Origin: an uncultured Synergistales bacterium
GTDB taxonomy: Bacteria; Synergistota; Synergistia; Synergistales; Aminobacteriaceae
Assembly (NCBI GenBank): GCA_905235395.1
Contig: CAJOLN010000006.1
Location: forward strand, 1 to 46,298
Length of the DNA stretch: 46,298 nucleotides
Direction of reading: 5' to 3'
Made by a program: the position numbers and the translations under genes. Shown here in pieces: positions 10,767 to 35,661 of the stretch (within the stretch, counting starts at the first letter, position 1; each line of letters begins with the position of its first letter). A model generated the notes under the pieces. It was not told the origin of the DNA. It made no database searches and was given only the letters and a program-made list of their open reading frames with translations.

Positions 10767-12374
10767 TTATGCTTTGAGTGCGTCATTCAATCCGTTCCAG
10801 TCCATATTTCTCGCTGAGTTTTCAATCTTCTCAAACCTTGCAGATTCACTCTCTGGAATTTTATACTTCCTGACCTCCTCAATCACACTGTCAATCGCAT
10901 CAATGTCAAAGCTGGCCGAAAATTCCTTTATGGCCTCGTATGCTTCATTCAATGACTCACGCGAAATCTCTGGTGCTGATTCTCGTGCTTTATCCTTTGC
11001 CGCGTACAACGGTGAAAGTATATCAATCAGACTTCGGTAATCCTCAAGGAGTTTAGGTGTGCGTTCCTGAATCTGAAGCATTGATGATTCAGACAAATCA
11101 TTTCCGCAGTCTTCAAGATGTCTCGCATCATCAGAGAGTTTCAATGCACCGATTAATCTTGCGGAACTCTTCAGCGCATGTACTTTTATCGTGTAGTTCT
11201 TATAGTCTCCATTCATGAAGAATAATTCTATTGCGTTGGAATTCTCATTGATTGAACGATAGAACTGTTCAAGTGTTCGGGCTAATATGTCTTCGTTCGA
11301 GCATACTCTGACTGCATCATCATAGCTCAATCCCTCTGCTGTTTCATAGAACTCTTCAAGCTCAGTATGTCCTGCGTCAGTTCCGTTACTGCTCTCATCA
11401 TCGGCGAATGTCTTCTGAAGTATCACTTTGGATTCGGGAAGATATTTCACAAGCATATTCTCGATTGCAGGGCCTTCAACAGGTTTCGATAAGTAGTTAG
11501 TGAATCCGAGACGAAGATATTCTTCACGTGCACCGCTCACTGCGTCTGCCGTAAGACATATCACAGGCGTATCATGATTCATTCCTCCGTCCTGACTGCG
11601 AATGTTCTGCATGGCCTCTGTTCCGTCCATTTGTGGCATTCTCTGATCCATGAAGATTAAATCATATTTTGTCTTCTTCGTGAGCGATAATGCTTCAAAT
11701 CCGCTTGAGGCAGTATCAATCTTAATCTCAGTTTTGCTCAGTAAACCTTCAACGACCGTGAGATTCATATCAGTATCATCAACAACGAGTATATGTGCCT
11801 CTGGTGCTCTGAATGATTCTCTGTATGCTCTCATGCTCTGAATGTACTGGTTGAATTTCTCCTGAAAGTTTCCTATTGCCTCATCACGAATGATTTTCTG
11901 CGGAAGTCTTATTGTGAACGTTGAGCCTTTTCCGTATTCACTATCAACATTCACTTCACCTTTCATCATCTCAAGAAGATTCTTCGTGATTGATAATCCT
12001 AATCCAGTACCTTCAACTGTGCTGTTGCGTTCGAGGTCAACACGCTGAAATTTCCCGAACAGTTTTGGAAGGTCTTCGCTCTTTATGCCTATGCCTGTAT
12101 CTTTGACGGTGAAGATGAGGTTAATCATATCATCATCCCGAACGCCTTCAACATGAAACGATACGCTGCCTTTATCCGTATATTTCACCGCGTTATTCAG
12201 GATATTCACGACAACCTGACGTACACGAACAGGGTCTCCGTAAAGCTCATCGGGAAGTGTCTCATCAACATTAACGTGAAACTCAAGATTTTTCTGCTTG
12301 GCCTTGAAGATTATCATGTTTGTAACGTCATTAAGAACGGAACTTAATTTGTAAATTGCATTAACGATTTCCAT
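10767..12374 (-). pseudogene. C-terminal part of a broken hybrid histidine kinase: HATPase, receiver and HPt domains
   Basis: A 535-residue frame carrying the output half of a hybrid sensor kinase. The GHKL ATPase has NILNNAVKYT (N box, Asn near 60), DTGIGI near 92-97 and GTGLGL near 122-127. The receiver (residues 193-305) has the acidic pair at VVDD, phosphoacceptor Asp243 in FMDQRMP and Lys297 in LSKPVE. The HPt domain has phosphoacceptor His399 in KVHALKSSARLIG. Its first codons, MEIVNAIYKLSSVLNDV, normally follow the HisKA helix as FSKIxAGKMEI. The DNA just before them, read in this frame, encodes Ala-Gly-Lys. The other half of that motif ends the upstream frame one base away. It therefore looks like the downstream piece of one gene split by an indel, not a native start. 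No ribosome site precedes its ATG. Confidence 0.8.
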
Positions 12375-12375
12375 T

Positions 12376-14241
12376 TTACCGGCTTATCTTCGAGAAGTCC
12401 AGTATGTCATTGATGATTGATAACAAATTCTTTCCTGCACTTTCAACGTTACGTGCATATTTCGTAATCTTCTTATCTTTGCTCTCTCGAATTATCATTT
12501 CATTCATACCTAAGACCGCGTTAATCGGCGTTCTAATCTCATGAGACATGCTCGCAAGAAATTCACTCTTTGCAGTGTTAGCTTTTTCCGCATGAGCCTT
12601 CGCAATCTCTAACAATTTTTCGCGTTCACTTCTGACAGAAAATATGCTGAGAAGAATCACGAGACTTATTACGCATAATCCCATTTGAATCAGGTTGTTC
12701 TTTATCAGTGATGCACGTATGACGTAATAGTCCATGCCTCCGCTTATTACTACCCGTACATCGTTATAGACTTCCTGACGCATCCATATTGCCGACACGA
12801 AGAACAGAAGAAGGAGCATTGCAGTCCATACCATAATGGAATTTCCGAAACGCCTGCTTTTATCCTTACCGACAATGTACCTGAAGAAAGCGAGTCCGAG
12901 AATGCCCCACACAGTGAGAATCAAATATGATTCAGGGGAGAGTGTGCTTATTGCCCAGAAGTTTGGAACGACAGCGAGAATGAAAAATCCAACGGATATT
13001 ATGACACCCAAAGCTCCGACAAATTGAACTCCGCGTTTGCCTTCCTTCCATGCAAATTTGAATGCCGCCGCTGAAGTGTAACCGTAAACTATTGTTGCAC
13101 CTACCGAAGTAACATCAACAATCCAGCCTACAGCAGTTCGTCCCATGAACGGAATGAATATCGATACGGCCATGATGAACATGATGCATTTCGCAGGAGT
13201 TTTGAATCTTCCGAGTGAATGAAATTTTTCGGAGATAATGCCTTCATCAGCAACAGCATATAGCAGACGTGAAGCCGCAACATAATTTCCGACTATGCCT
13301 GTTACAACTCCTCCGATTAAAGTGAATGCAAGAACAATAAGCCCTGCATTGCCCATAATCTTTTGTGTCGCGAAGAAAACAGGAAGACCTTTGAGACCTT
13401 CGAGATTGCCGATGTCTTTTATGTATGCAGTCCAGTCCGAATAACCTTCAGGCTGAACTGTAACAGCAAGCCACGTCAGGAATGTATACGCTATTCCTCC
13501 TGCGATTACTGCTGAGGCCATGATGAGAAATGATTTCCTGACAGAAAATTTGAATTCACCCGTTGAATGCGATACTGATTCAAATCCAACAAATGCCCAG
13601 GGGACTAATGCCGCTACCTGTATAATCTGAACGTAAACTTCTTCGCCGTCAGAGAACCATGCTTGAGACATACTAGCTCCATTAGTCTTAATGAGTGCAA
13701 CGCATAGACAGAAGACGATTCCGAAAAACAGAATCAGAGCCATTAATGTCTGAACGAATCCTGTCATCTTCCCGCTGAATATGCAGATGAATCCGAATAA
13801 TAATATTGCACCTATGGATACGAGTGCTTCACCAAAATAGACATCATAGCCTGCAACAGTGTAATGAAACCCGAACTGAAAGATTCCGCCTGCAAGATTC
13901 CTCGCGATGAGAACGAGTGCAGTTGCGTTAGCCCAGAGTATTGCTATGTATGTAAGAATGAGAAACCATGAGCATAGAAATCCGTGATCATATCCAAAAG
14001 CCTCTTTTGTATACGTGAAAGCTCCTCCGCTGCCTGCGTAATGATTCATAAGGTAGTGATAGTTGAAGCTGATTATTAACATTAATGCCGCGCCTATCGA
14101 CATACCTATGATTGTTCCCATTGGGCCGGCTGTCGGAAGAAATGTTGTGCCTGGCATCATGAAAGCTCCCCAGCCAACAGTACAGCCGAAAGCTAGAGAC
14201 CATGCTCCTAATGGTGATAAATACCTGTCAGGTTTCCTCAT
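12376..14241 (-). pseudogene. N-terminal part of a broken APC permease/histidine kinase fusion: permease plus HisKA
   Basis: A 621-residue frame. Residues 1-440 are an APC-superfamily amino-acid permease: the first helix has FGCTVGWGAFMMPG, with the unwound Gly-rich substrate site of the LeuT fold, followed by about 11 more hydrophobic segments. The amphipathic GSGGAFTYTKEAFG and FVGFESVSHSTGEFK are typical of APC members. Two extra helices flank a short outside loop (residues ~470-545). Then a linker helix leads to a HisKA dimerisation domain with phosphoacceptor His567 in SMSHEIRTPIN. The frame stops right after DFSKISR, where intact kinases read DFSKIEAGKME. The continuation is in another frame at 12374. 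The start at 14241 has GAGGAG 9 bases ahead; the longer open frame into groEL is rejected. Inferred role of the intact protein: a transporter-like sensor for an amino acid. Confidence 0.8.
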
Positions 14242-14335
14242 GCGATTCTTCTCCTCTTGAACATAAATTGAATAAGTCTTTGAAAGTATACAACAGCTAA
14301 TAGAACAGGCAAAACACAAAAGGAAAAGTGAGCAC

Positions 14336-14366
14336 AAAAAAACCGGAAGCCTTTCAAGACCTCCGG
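14336..14366 (-). terminator. Intrinsic terminator after groEL
   Basis: On the minus strand CCGGAGG pairs with CTTCCGG (one G-T pair) and is followed by seven Ts. It separates groEL from the downstream permease/kinase gene. Confidence 0.85.
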
Positions 14367-14392
14367 CTGAAGATTCAAAACTTCTGTTGAGA

Positions 14393-16051
<1,659 letters not shown>

Positions 16052-32401: not shown

Positions 32402-33568
32402 TCACATGCTCCTCTTCAAAATATCAATCACTTCATCATGTGTCAGCTTCTTATAGCCTCCATTAAGAATGAACGTTGCCTTTGCAATTCCCTCGTACAT
32501 ATCTTCCGTAACTCCGAGTTCCTTCAAGCTCATCACAACTCCAATCTCACGCATCCATGATTCAAATGCCTTTAGTCCTTCGTCTGCTAACTGCGAATCA
32601 CTTTTGCCTTCAGTATTGATTCCCCACACATTAACCGCAAAACGTGCAAATTTTTTCAGTCCTGCATTCATGATTGTGCGATAGTATGCGAGTGATACTG
32701 CCGAAAGTGTCATGCCGTGAGTTGCATTCGTATACGCTCCTACAGCCTGACCTATCATGTGAACCATCCAGTCCTGAGATTTCGCCTTGCCGATTAACGT
32801 GTTCAATGCCCATGTTGCCGTCCACATGATATTACTGCGTGCTTCGTAATCGCGAGGATTCTTTACGGCAATTTTTGAGCTGTGCACGAGTGATCTCATC
32901 AGACCCTCCGAAATATAATCCGATGTGTTGTCGTCCTCGCCTGAAAGATACTGTTCCAGAATATGGCACATGATATCAAAGAAACCTGCGACCATTTGAT
33001 ACTGAGGGACAGTGAAAGTGTATTTGGGATTCAGAATTGAGAACTTCGGAAATACATTATCTCCAAATACATGGCCTATCTTGAGTTTCTGTTCGTGATT
33101 CGTGATTACACTTCCGCCATTCATTTCGCTTCCTGTTCCTACCATTGTTAAGACGCACCCAACAGGAATAATTTTGCAGGTTGGTTCTTCCATTCTCAGA
33201 AAATATTTGTCCCATGCATCTTCTTCGCAGTATGCTGACACTGATACCGCCTTCGAGTAATCACATACACTTCCGCCTCCGACAGCAAGAATCAAATCAA
33301 CGTGATTCTCTTTTGCGAGCTTTGCACCTTCGTATAACTTTTCGATTGTCGGGTTGGCCATGACTCCGGGAAGTTCAATGATATTCTTTCCGCAGTCATT
33401 GAGTATCGCAACTATATCATCATACAGTCCGCTCTTCTTGATTGATCCTCCGCCATATGTGAGAAGGATATTCTTTCCGTAATTTGAAAGTTCATCTTTG
33501 AGTGAAGCTAATGCATTCTTTCCGAAATGTATACGCGTAGGATTTGAATATGTGAAATCGCCTAACAT
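32402..33568 (-). CDS. Iron-containing alcohol dehydrogenase (butanol-dehydrogenase-like)
   Basis: A 388-residue NAD(P)H-dependent dehydrogenase with an Fe2+ or Zn2+ site. The N-terminus MLGDFTYSNPTRIHFGKNAL is typical of BdhA/YqhD relatives. The nucleotide-binding region has LILAVGGGSVCDYSKAVS. Metal ligands sit in FDIMCHILEQY (Asp and His), DWMVHMIGQ (His) and ATHGMTLSAVS (His), the expected four. It reduces aldehydes to alcohols to reoxidise NAD(P)H in fermentation. The start at ATG 33568 has AAAGGAG 14 bases ahead; a longer open frame overlaps the upstream carrier gene and is rejected. Flavodoxin follows by 3 bases. Confidence 0.9.
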   Translation of the reverse strand: MLGDFTYSNPTRIHFGKNALASLKDELSNYGKNILLTYGGGSIKKSGLYDDIVAILNDCGKNIIELPGVMANPTIEKLYEGAKLAKENHVDLILAVGGGSVCDYSKAVSVSAYCEEDAWDKYFLRMEEPTCKIIPVGCVLTMVGTGSEMNGGSVITNHEQKLKIGHVFGDNVFPKFSILNPKYTFTVPQYQMVAGFFDIMCHILEQYLSGEDDNTSDYISEGLMRSLVHSSKIAVKNPRDYEARSNIMWTATWALNTLIGKAKSQDWMVHMIGQAVGAYTNATHGMTLSAVSLAYYRTIMNAGLKKFARFAVNVWGINTEGKSDSQLADEGLKAFESWMREIGVVMSLKELGVTEDMYEGIAKATFILNGGYKKLTHDEVIDILKRSM

Positions 33569-33629: not shown

Positions 33630-35285
33630 TTATTGCAAATCCTTCGTTTCACCGTAAAATTTTTCTCTGTCGAGTATCTTTTCATTTGAACTTACTGCTA
33701 ATGTCGATGCTACTGCACTGAAACTGTTTACAGGAGGGTGCATGAAATTCTGAAGTGCATCAATACCCATAATGATTCCGAGTGCCTCAGCAGGAACTCC
33801 TAACTGTGAAATAGCAATAGAGATACACACAAGCGATGCACCAGTTATGCCCGGAGCACTGACAGTTAAAATCGTAACAGATATTATCAATGGAAGAATA
33901 CTTTCTACAGGGACATTAACGCCGTAAATTTTCGCGAGCATAAGTGAACTTAATGCTGTATACATTGCAGCAGCATCAAGGCTTATTGTTGCCCCCAAAG
34001 GAATTGAGAATGAAAATATACGCTTAGGTACTCCCATTTCATCGCAGGCATTCATATTGCTGGGAATAGATGCCGTTGTTGATGATGCCATTGCAAGCAG
34101 CGCATACGGAAAAAATTTCTTCAGTGCATGAATCGGATTGAGCTTCCCAAAAATAAAAATCTGAAGACATGACATAGTCCAAAGACAGAACATACCTGCC
34201 ACAATTGAAGCTATGAATCCCGTGAATGAAATCAGGATTGTTGAGTCAGCCGTGAGAACTGCGGAAAGTATAGAACAAAATCCCGCTAACGGAAGAAAAC
34301 GCATAATGATTTTTGTGATTGCCATGAAAAGCTGACAGCATGAATCAAAAAATTCACGCAGAGGTTTCGCTGATTCTCCCATTGTCAGAAGACCTGCACC
34401 GCATAAAAACGCTAGGAATAAAACTTGAAACATATTCATCTCAAAGAAGGGACGCAGAAAATTTGAAGGGACAATATTAACAATGACATCGCTATTAGGA
34501 ATAGACGCAGAAGATACAGAAGGATTAGATGCAACAAGATGAATGCCTCCGCATGGCTGTAACAGGAAAAATATTCCGACACCTATACATGCAGCTAGGA
34601 ACATTTTTATCAGGAATGCACTCACAATCTTTAACCCTACGCGACCAAGCTCGGAGAAATTTTTGAACGGTGAAATGCAATTCACGATCGCAAAGAATAT
34701 CAGAGGAGTGACGATAGCTTTTATGATGTTCATGTACATAGTTTTAAAAGGCACAAGAACAATGCTGTTTACCGCAGAACATAATGACTCAGATGTAAAA
34801 TTCTTCATCAAAGCTCCTATGATAACTGCCGAGATTAAAGCCGTAAGTGTCCACCAGAAAGCAGATTTATTTGAACGTGCAGCAATAACCATTATGATAT
34901 TGAAGCCGCGCCTGTGTGAATATCTCAGTCTGTCTTCAAATGAATGAAGCAGGATATTCTGTATTGCCTCGTAAGCTGCGGGCATTCCTTCTTCATCGAA
35001 TGTGATTCCTGGATTCAAAGTCTCCAGAAAATCAAATTTTTCGCCTGGCACTGTGAGTTTCACTGTTATTCTGCCGAAGAATTTTTTGATGCTCACGTAA
35101 AATGCTCCGCCTTCTTTGAGGTTTCCATGTTCAATGAGATGCGTCAATGATTCTTCTGCCATTAAATTCGCACGTGATTCTTCATTGGAATTGAGGTGAT
35201 ATTTCTTCAGGTTTTCTCTTATGAAACTTAATGCCTCACCTATTGAATCAATCTTTGAATTTGAATTTACACTGAATTTTTTCAT
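33630..35285 (-). CDS. SDF-family carboxylate carrier with N-terminal RsbW-like ATPase fold
   Basis: A 551-residue protein. Residues ~1-140 resemble the small GHKL/HATPase of anti-sigma factors: an N-box helix MAEESLTHLIEHGN, a strand pair FYVSIKKFFGRITVKLTVPGEKFDF and a last strand RYSHRRGFNIIMVIA. The N-box Asn appears replaced by His and the ATP-site Asp is not obvious, so ATP binding may be lost. Residues ~145-535 are an SDF carrier with about eight helices and hairpins: ASSTTASIPSNMNACDEMG (Ser-rich hairpin 1) and FSIPLGATISLDAAAMY in the position of the usual NMDGT motif. The helix-8 region HPPVNSFSAVAS lacks the Arg/Asp of glutamate carriers, so the substrate probably differs. Ribosome site AAAGGAGGG. 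Second gene after the CsaA-like gene, 19 bases on. Confidence 0.8.
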   Translation of the reverse strand: MKKFSVNSNSKIDSIGEALSFIRENLKKYHLNSNEESRANLMAEESLTHLIEHGNLKEGGAFYVSIKKFFGRITVKLTVPGEKFDFLETLNPGITFDEEGMPAAYEAIQNILLHSFEDRLRYSHRRGFNIIMVIAARSNKSAFWWTLTALISAVIIGALMKNFTSESLCSAVNSIVLVPFKTMYMNIIKAIVTPLIFFAIVNCISPFKNFSELGRVGLKIVSAFLIKMFLAACIGVGIFFLLQPCGGIHLVASNPSVSSASIPNSDVIVNIVPSNFLRPFFEMNMFQVLFLAFLCGAGLLTMGESAKPLREFFDSCCQLFMAITKIIMRFLPLAGFCSILSAVLTADSTILISFTGFIASIVAGMFCLWTMSCLQIFIFGKLNPIHALKKFFPYALLAMASSTTASIPSNMNACDEMGVPKRIFSFSIPLGATISLDAAAMYTALSSLMLAKIYGVNVPVESILPLIISVTILTVSAPGITGASLVCISIAISQLGVPAEALGIIMGIDALQNFMHPPVNSFSAVASTLAVSSNEKILDREKFYGETKDLQ

Positions 35286-35304: not shown

Positions 35305-35640
35305 TCAGCATAATTTATCTCCGTCTTTTGTTTCTTCGGGCTTATCGGGAACTGCTAACACGATTCCTTCTTTGCTGTCTGTGCCGAGCACTAAGACTTC
35401 ACTCATGAAATCTGCAATTTGTCTCGCAGGGAAATTAACAACCGCGAGAATTTTTTTGCCGATTAAATCTTCTGGGTTATACAGCTTCGTTATCTGTGCA
35501 GATGATTTTTTGATTCCGATTTCATCACCAAAATCTATCGTGAGCTTGTAAGCTGGCTTTCTTGCTTTTGGAAATGCTTCAACGTTTATGATTGTTCCTG
35601 CTCGTATATCTAATTTTGCAAAGTCTTCATACACTGCCAT
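35305..35640 (-). CDS. csaA: CsaA-like tRNA-binding domain protein
   Basis: A 111-residue cytoplasmic protein made of one OB-fold tRNA-binding domain, the length and layout of CsaA: FAKLDIRAGTIINVEAFPKARKPAYKLTIDFG at the N-terminus, KKSSAQITKLY in the middle, and VVNFPARQIADFMSEVLVLG. CsaA in other bacteria is a homodimer with chaperone-like and tRNA-binding activity. The start at ATG 35640 has AAAGGAGTG nearby; a GTG four codons earlier overlaps that site. It lies 21 bases after the flippase stop in a tight five-gene run. Confidence 0.9.
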   Translation of the reverse strand: MAVYEDFAKLDIRAGTIINVEAFPKARKPAYKLTIDFGDEIGIKKSSAQITKLYNPEDLIGKKILAVVNFPARQIADFMSEVLVLGTDSKEGIVLAVPDKPEETKDGDKLC

Positions 35641-35661
35641 GAAATGAATCACTCCTTTCGT

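Follow-up and report, generated by a model that had tools for sequence, protein, structure and literature searches.

A degenerate RsbW-type domain on an SDF carrier of the Synergistota and its possible role as a dock for STAS proteins

Introduction

Partner switching is known chiefly as a means of freeing sigma factors, and only few enzyme targets of it have been described. Its kinases, RsbW and SpoIIAB (HATPase_c_2), have in common with the domain described here their fold, the N-box Glu and the closing strands, and STAS and PP2C genes adjoin several relatives of our protein. They differ in that our domain lacks an ATP site and is attached to a transporter, and no sigma factor was noticed beside the fusions in the loci read. 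The STAS protein RsbV binds RsbW when unphosphorylated (PMC8256260). In the SiaABCD and HsbRAD systems a PP2C phosphatase and an antagonist protein act on a non-sigma target, as proposed here; that target is a diguanylate cyclase, whereas here it would be a transporter with an RsbW-like dock of its own. SiaC acts on the cyclase SiaD solely when unphosphorylated, a precedent for a target other than a sigma factor (PMC8457831).

Several transporters offer further comparisons. The SLC26/SulP proteins (for example DauA) likewise couple a secondary transporter to one member of the STAS/RsbW pair; they carry the STAS half, and the fusion described here the (pseudo-)RsbW half. Transporter-histidine kinase fusions such as the SLC5-type CbrA also unite a transporter with a GHKL domain, but are catalytic kinases with HisKA, whereas our protein carries an RsbW-type pseudokinase. 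With the SDF/DAACS carriers (GltPh, GltTk, DctA; PF00375) it has the entire carrier fold in common, but possesses an extra N-terminal domain, and the R397, D405, N310 and D394 ligands are changed. Fusions of a transporter with a pseudo-RsbW domain were not found in the open-access literature, to which most subscription journals do not belong; the architecture may already be listed in public databases.

Results

An SDF carrier preceded by a GHKL domain

The gene lies in a 46,298-nucleotide stretch of DNA from an uncultured Synergistales bacterium of the gut; the whole stretch is called the window below.

33630..35285, minus strand: whole gene, pseudo-RsbW domain plus SDF carrier (open reading frame, 551 amino acids)
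34869..35285, minus strand: N-terminal degenerate GHKL (RsbW/SpoIIAB-type) domain, residues 1-139 (Pfam, AlphaFold2, Foldseek, profile-profile comparison)
33690..34856, minus strand: SDF carrier domain, residues 144-532 (Pfam, structure superposition)

The SDF profile (PF00375) matched residues 144-532 of the window protein with an E-value of 4.7e-72. HATPase_c_2 (PF13581) was also matched, by residues 1-141 alone (E 5.8e-4), but the score of 20.3 bits falls under the curated Pfam cut-off of 27.4 bits. This was the profile check proposed in an earlier sequence-only reading of this DNA. Among 48 Synergistaceae relatives the N-terminal domains of 18 matched this profile singly, the best with an E-value of 1.4e-6. 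Profile-profile comparison of the fusion N-domains with true RsbW domains from the same bacteria made the assignment firm: it gave a probability of 96-97% and an E-value of 1.2e-9, or 3e-11 with a wider N-domain set, over about 120 columns and hence nearly the full length of the domain.

The AlphaFold2 model of the N-domain (pLDDT 78) has the order strand-helix-helix-strand-strand-helix-helix-strand-strand, which is that of GHKL domains, and its confidence is lowest at the expected position of the ATP lid (residues 93-102). The PDB searched by sequence alone with this domain gave nothing meaningful; by fold comparison with Foldseek the top matches were SpoIIAB structures (1tid, E 1.7e-5; 1l0o, TM 0.67), with UsfX and RsbW also among the best. 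Superposed on GltPh, the model of the whole protein reaches a TM-score of 0.86 of GltPh at 2.4 A. An RsbW/SpoIIAB-type GHKL fold of the N-domain is thus confirmed. This agrees with the sequence-only reading, which had placed some 140 RsbW/SpoIIAB-like residues ahead of an SDF carrier, and the outcome that would have spoken against it, a fold of residues 1-140 other than GHKL, was not what structure prediction returned.

The ATP site is lost and the domain is maintained

35124..35156, minus strand: N-box EESLTHLIEHG, residues 44-54; Glu45 kept, Mg-binding Asn replaced by His49
35028..35051, minus strand: VPGEKFDF, residues 79-86, in place of DxGxP(Y/F)(N/D)P; ATP-site Asp replaced by Val79, Gly81 kept
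34959..34973, minus strand: YEAIQ, residues 105-109, where RsbW has the glycine lid IGGLG
34899..34922, minus strand: YSHRRGFN, residues 122-129, corresponding to the RsbW closing strands YEYKDGKN

Both defects noticed before, a His for the N-box Asn and a missing ATP-site Asp, were found in the window protein, and the glycine lid is gone as well. The 48 Synergistaceae fusions were compared in an alignment to 21 true RsbW domains from these bacteria: none of the fusions has the N-box Asn, the DxG Asp or the GGLG lid, and each of the 21 has all three. Glu45, in contrast, is kept in every one of the 48; it, Gly81, Tyr122 and Asn129 are each conserved in 46-48 of them. In SpoIIAB, Glu46 is the catalytic base and Asn50 the Mg ligand, and His54, Gly107 and Gly109 contact ATP (PMC10345196). 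A His occupies the position of SpoIIAB His54 in 31 of the 48 fusions. Since Glu45 is the equivalent of SpoIIAB Glu46, the base acting on the STAS serine appears to be retained while the residues holding ATP are gone. Judged by these motifs, the N-domains of the 48 aligned relatives are all pseudokinases, and nucleotide binding is unlikely because the ATP contacts have been lost in every one of them; a nucleotide-gated cap, as had been suggested for the carrier, was rejected on this ground. The dN/dS values of the N-domain (0.16-0.42, against 0.14-0.25 for the carrier) indicate that it is maintained under purifying selection and is not decaying.

Substrate and cation motifs of the carrier

33963..33983, minus strand: helix 7, SLDAAAM in the place of NMDGT; N310S, D312 kept (GltPh numbering)
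33714..33767, minus strand: helix 8, GIDALQNFMHPPVNSFSA; D394N, R397H, T398P, N401 kept, D405A (GltPh numbering)

The departures from glutamate carriers that had been read from the sequence, SLDAA for NMDGT and HPPVNSFSA in helix 8, are real. The window protein belongs to the SDF family by profile and by its GltPh-like fold, and lacks the canonical NMDGT, R397, D394 and D405; by these motifs, its substrate and cation coupling probably differ from those of glutamate carriers. Of the 48 fusions, 6 have Arg at position 397 and 4 have Asp at position 405 (GltPh numbering). Canonical motifs survive elsewhere, with NMDGS and RMTINVIGD in one fusion (L061) and NMDGT in another (L239), so not every fusion has lost its coupling residues.

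Distribution and phylogeny of the fusion

Searched with the N-domain, 35 of 188 Synergistota genomes, chiefly of the window's own genus, gave one to five matches each; the weakest matches, including all those in four or five of the 35 genomes, are stand-alone RsbW-like proteins. The fusion itself occurs in about 30 Synergistaceae genomes, frequently in tandem copies, and further, more divergent subtypes exist. The confinement to one genus first suggested by these searches was overturned when a wide profile found N-domain matches in 12 of 398 Bacillota genomes (phylum assigned from the Spo0A gene in the sample's centre genome), at least 8 of which carry the fusion. Long SDF frames of other phyla (G188, G371, G226) lack the N-domain and are ordinary SDF carriers whose internal loops are long, and the plasmid searches gave, among the matches listed, SDF carriers without the N-domain only.

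In trees of the carrier part, one branch splits all fusions from the stand-alone carriers (support 93/78 in the Synergistaceae set and 100/100 in a wider set), and within the fusions the Bacillota and Synergistaceae members interleave. These topologies fit a single ancient fusion followed by divergence, and the fusion was probably moved between the phyla by transfer. Broken copies also exist. The closest ortholog (L005 6001-7653, in G083:C5), 92% identical to the window gene, has two in-frame stops, so the gene is dispensable in some relatives, and frameshifted copies were found at three loci (L046, L077, L083). A tandem copy in another genome (G086, L058 9995-11317) appears to have lost parts of both the pseudo-RsbW domain and the carrier by deletion, with the frame still open.

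Neighbours of the window gene

35305..35652, minus strand: CsaA-like tRNA-binding protein, upstream, 19 bases from the fusion (named by inspection)
32402..33568, minus strand: iron-type alcohol dehydrogenase, downstream (named by inspection; start taken from a 388-aa ortholog)
10767-14514, minus strand: APC-type permease with HisKA, HATPase, receiver and HPt domains (domains by inspection; two open reading frames)

The CsaA-like gene stays beside the fusion in G047, G061 and G056, and the dehydrogenase gene in these three genomes as well as in G083 and G055. The order CsaA-like, fusion, iron-type alcohol dehydrogenase, flavodoxin-like (names by inspection) is kept in several genomes with small rearrangements, and it persists even where the fusions are only 44-50% identical. 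No STAS or PP2C gene was seen near the window copy within the flanks read. True RsbW, STAS (G000:C5 and C130) and PP2C genes are present elsewhere in the window's genome, and the window copy presumably uses the STAS and PP2C proteins encoded there.

The gene had been counted as the second fusion of a transporter with a histidine-kinase-type fold in the window. The other is indeed an APC permease with a histidine kinase, but it is split into two open reading frames, the frame being broken by an apparent 2-base loss at about 12380, at the end of the HisKA helix. A Pfam scan detected no HisKA in the window fusion, which also lacks the ATP motifs.

STAS and PP2C genes adjoin fusions in some relatives

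The search for further fusions and their neighbours, which had been recommended along with the first reading, uncovered a large family extending into the Bacillota, and five of its loci (four Bacillota, one Synergistaceae) adjoin STAS (RsbV-like) and/or SpoIIE-type PP2C (RsbU-like) genes. The Synergistaceae operon (G090) reads STAS, fusion, HAMP-PP2C-RsbW. In the Bacillota the arrangements are STAS, fusion, Cache-HAMP-PP2C in a tight run with gaps of 41 and 8 bases (G419); STAS and fusion at one place and PP2C and fusion at another (G662); and STAS, PP2C-RsbW, fusion (G786). A further Bacillota fusion, outside these five, has STAS and PP2C 2-4 kb away (G708). The co-encoded STAS proteins retain the phosphorylatable serine (YISSAGLR, YLSSAGIR), as assigned by analogy with RsbV. 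All Synergistaceae fusions but that of G090 had neither gene within the flanks read, nor did seven Bacillota loci (L239, L243, L244, L245, L250-L252). Each genome carries 2-9 STAS and 1-8 PP2C genes. At about 60 loci, 7 adjacent STAS/PP2C partners were observed against about 0.44 expected by chance (Poisson P about 5e-7, or 7e-6 with one ortholog pair counted once), an estimate for which the loci are taken as independent, the background as uniform and each genome as having about 2,700 genes. Of the nucleotide- or partner-binding cap proposed earlier, the nucleotide alternative was not borne out; a role in binding a partner, and not in catalysis, is supported, and these operons point indirectly to STAS as the likely partner.

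The same disabled domain on other transporters

A degenerate RsbW domain was also found at the C-terminus of MATE carriers, one encoded between STAS and PP2C genes (G406, L247 9573-11360) and one beside STAS with a broken-up PP2C gene downstream (G524, L253 6896-8683), and at the C-terminus of ABC ATPases of the Bacillota (L243) and of the window's genus (L222, L185). A cluster in the genome of the window itself (G000:C5:500-18000; L173, L256) joins the partner-switching genes STAS, PP2C and PP2C-RsbW to an amino-acid-type ABC transporter with three genes of the solute-binding kind (of which one was tested in Pfam), a permease and an ATPase with a pseudo-RsbW tail. It also holds a lysyltransferase-type protein, an EamA permease and a membrane protein with a C-terminal pseudo-RsbW domain, and the arrangement in a second genome (G081, L185) is very similar. 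Against Pfam, the MATE and ABC tails match below the cut-off (2.3e-4 and 3.2e-3); these matches are independent evidence, unlike the E-values that our custom HMMs, built with fusions included, give for other degenerate domains. The domains examined in Bacillota fusions and on MATE and ABC proteins likewise have neither the N-box Asn nor the glycine lid.

Two other proteins were also noticed. One, of 215-217 aa with an RsbW-like start (LRLLTEEMLSMVR), heads partner-switching clusters (L173 11746-12396, L185 1485-2132, L180 11-664); it gave no Pfam match where tested (L173) and is possibly a new kinase-like family. The other, of 514 aa (G697, L248 8001-9545), has a canonical RsbW-type start with the GLG lid present and a C-terminal part that looks GNAT-like.

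Discussion

The N-terminus of SDF carriers is cytosolic, as established for GltPh. We consider it somewhat probable that the N-domain is a dock for STAS proteins, through which partner switching controls the carrier directly and not a sigma factor. The disabled domain would then be a cytosolic dock for an unphosphorylated STAS (RsbV/SpoIIAA-like) protein. A SpoIIE-type, RsbU-like PP2C, usually membrane-bound with a sensor domain, would dephosphorylate this protein, and its phosphorylation would fall to a true RsbW kinase, which is in many cases part of one polypeptide with the phosphatase, so that the state of the STAS protein would set whether the carrier is bound and whether it transports. 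This is the most economical reading of what the analysis shows, namely the fold, the lost ATP site, the maintenance of the domain, its spread, its presence on MATE and ABC transporters and the operons with STAS and PP2C in relatives. The STAS binding and its dependence on phosphorylation, its effect on transport, the sign of that effect and the substrate are what we infer here. We lean towards the unphosphorylated STAS protein as the form bound, by analogy, because RsbV binds RsbW and SiaC acts on SiaD in that form.

The main alternatives give a different role either to the carrier or to the cap. The carrier could be a transceptor, the diverged carrier sensing its substrate while the pseudo-RsbW domain sequesters or releases STAS protein, and the RsbW/PP2C network thereby reading the nutrient state. 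The window carrier is indeed without many of its substrate and cation ligands (equivalents of R397, D405 and N310), true RsbW, STAS and PP2C genes are present in the same genome, and E. coli DctA is, together with DcuS, part of a sensor complex (PMC5703999). This is nevertheless unlikely, given the canonical motifs in some fusions (NMDGS, NMDGT), the purifying selection on the carrier domain, a tandem expansion that resembles a transporter set, and the fact that an ABC ATPase and a MATE carrier bear this domain too. Direct contact of a STAS domain, for which DauA-DctA had been considered as a precedent, was dropped, as that contact runs through membrane domains. Slightly less likely again is a purely structural cap, in which the GHKL domain is a module for oligomerisation or stability (SDF trimers being linked through dimerisation of the SpoIIAB type) and has no STAS partner. 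It would agree with the lost ATP site and the absence of STAS/PP2C neighbours at most Synergistaceae fusions, but it leaves the adjacency far over chance, the invariant Glu45 with no obvious structural need, and the occurrence of this domain on transporters of unrelated kinds within partner-switching clusters without explanation.

Two further possibilities are very improbable. An active nucleotide-binding cap or kinase gating the carrier with ATP could be argued from the GHKL fold, from Glu45 and from the frequent His at the His54 position, yet the Mg-binding Asn, the ATP-site Asp and the lid are missing throughout the 48 fusions, and the Asn and the lid in the examined Bacillota, MATE and ABC versions. 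A functionless, decaying remnant, to which the pseudogene copies would point, is equally hard to reconcile with an N-domain dN/dS near that of the carrier and with conservation across two phyla.

A further rival, proposed in the sequence-only reading, is that the N-domain may titrate an anti-sigma antagonist. Beyond that reading, the analysis adds a large family, its Bacillota members and the MATE and ABC transporters that bear this domain. It is conceivable, and proposed here tentatively, that docking of STAS proteins is a general layer of transporter control in anaerobes, in which disabled RsbW domains on unrelated transporters (SDF, MATE, ABC ATPase and the membrane protein beside the EamA permease) act as STAS plugs that are set by sensor PP2C phosphatases, giving external signals a direct, post-translational switch of uptake. 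If the pseudo-RsbW domain is a STAS dock, one relay would control nutrient uptake directly. The STAS/PP2C operons of gut anaerobes for which no sigma factor is evident as a partner would then have a purpose, and the fusion would be the mirror image of the long-puzzling STAS domain in SLC26/SulP transporters.
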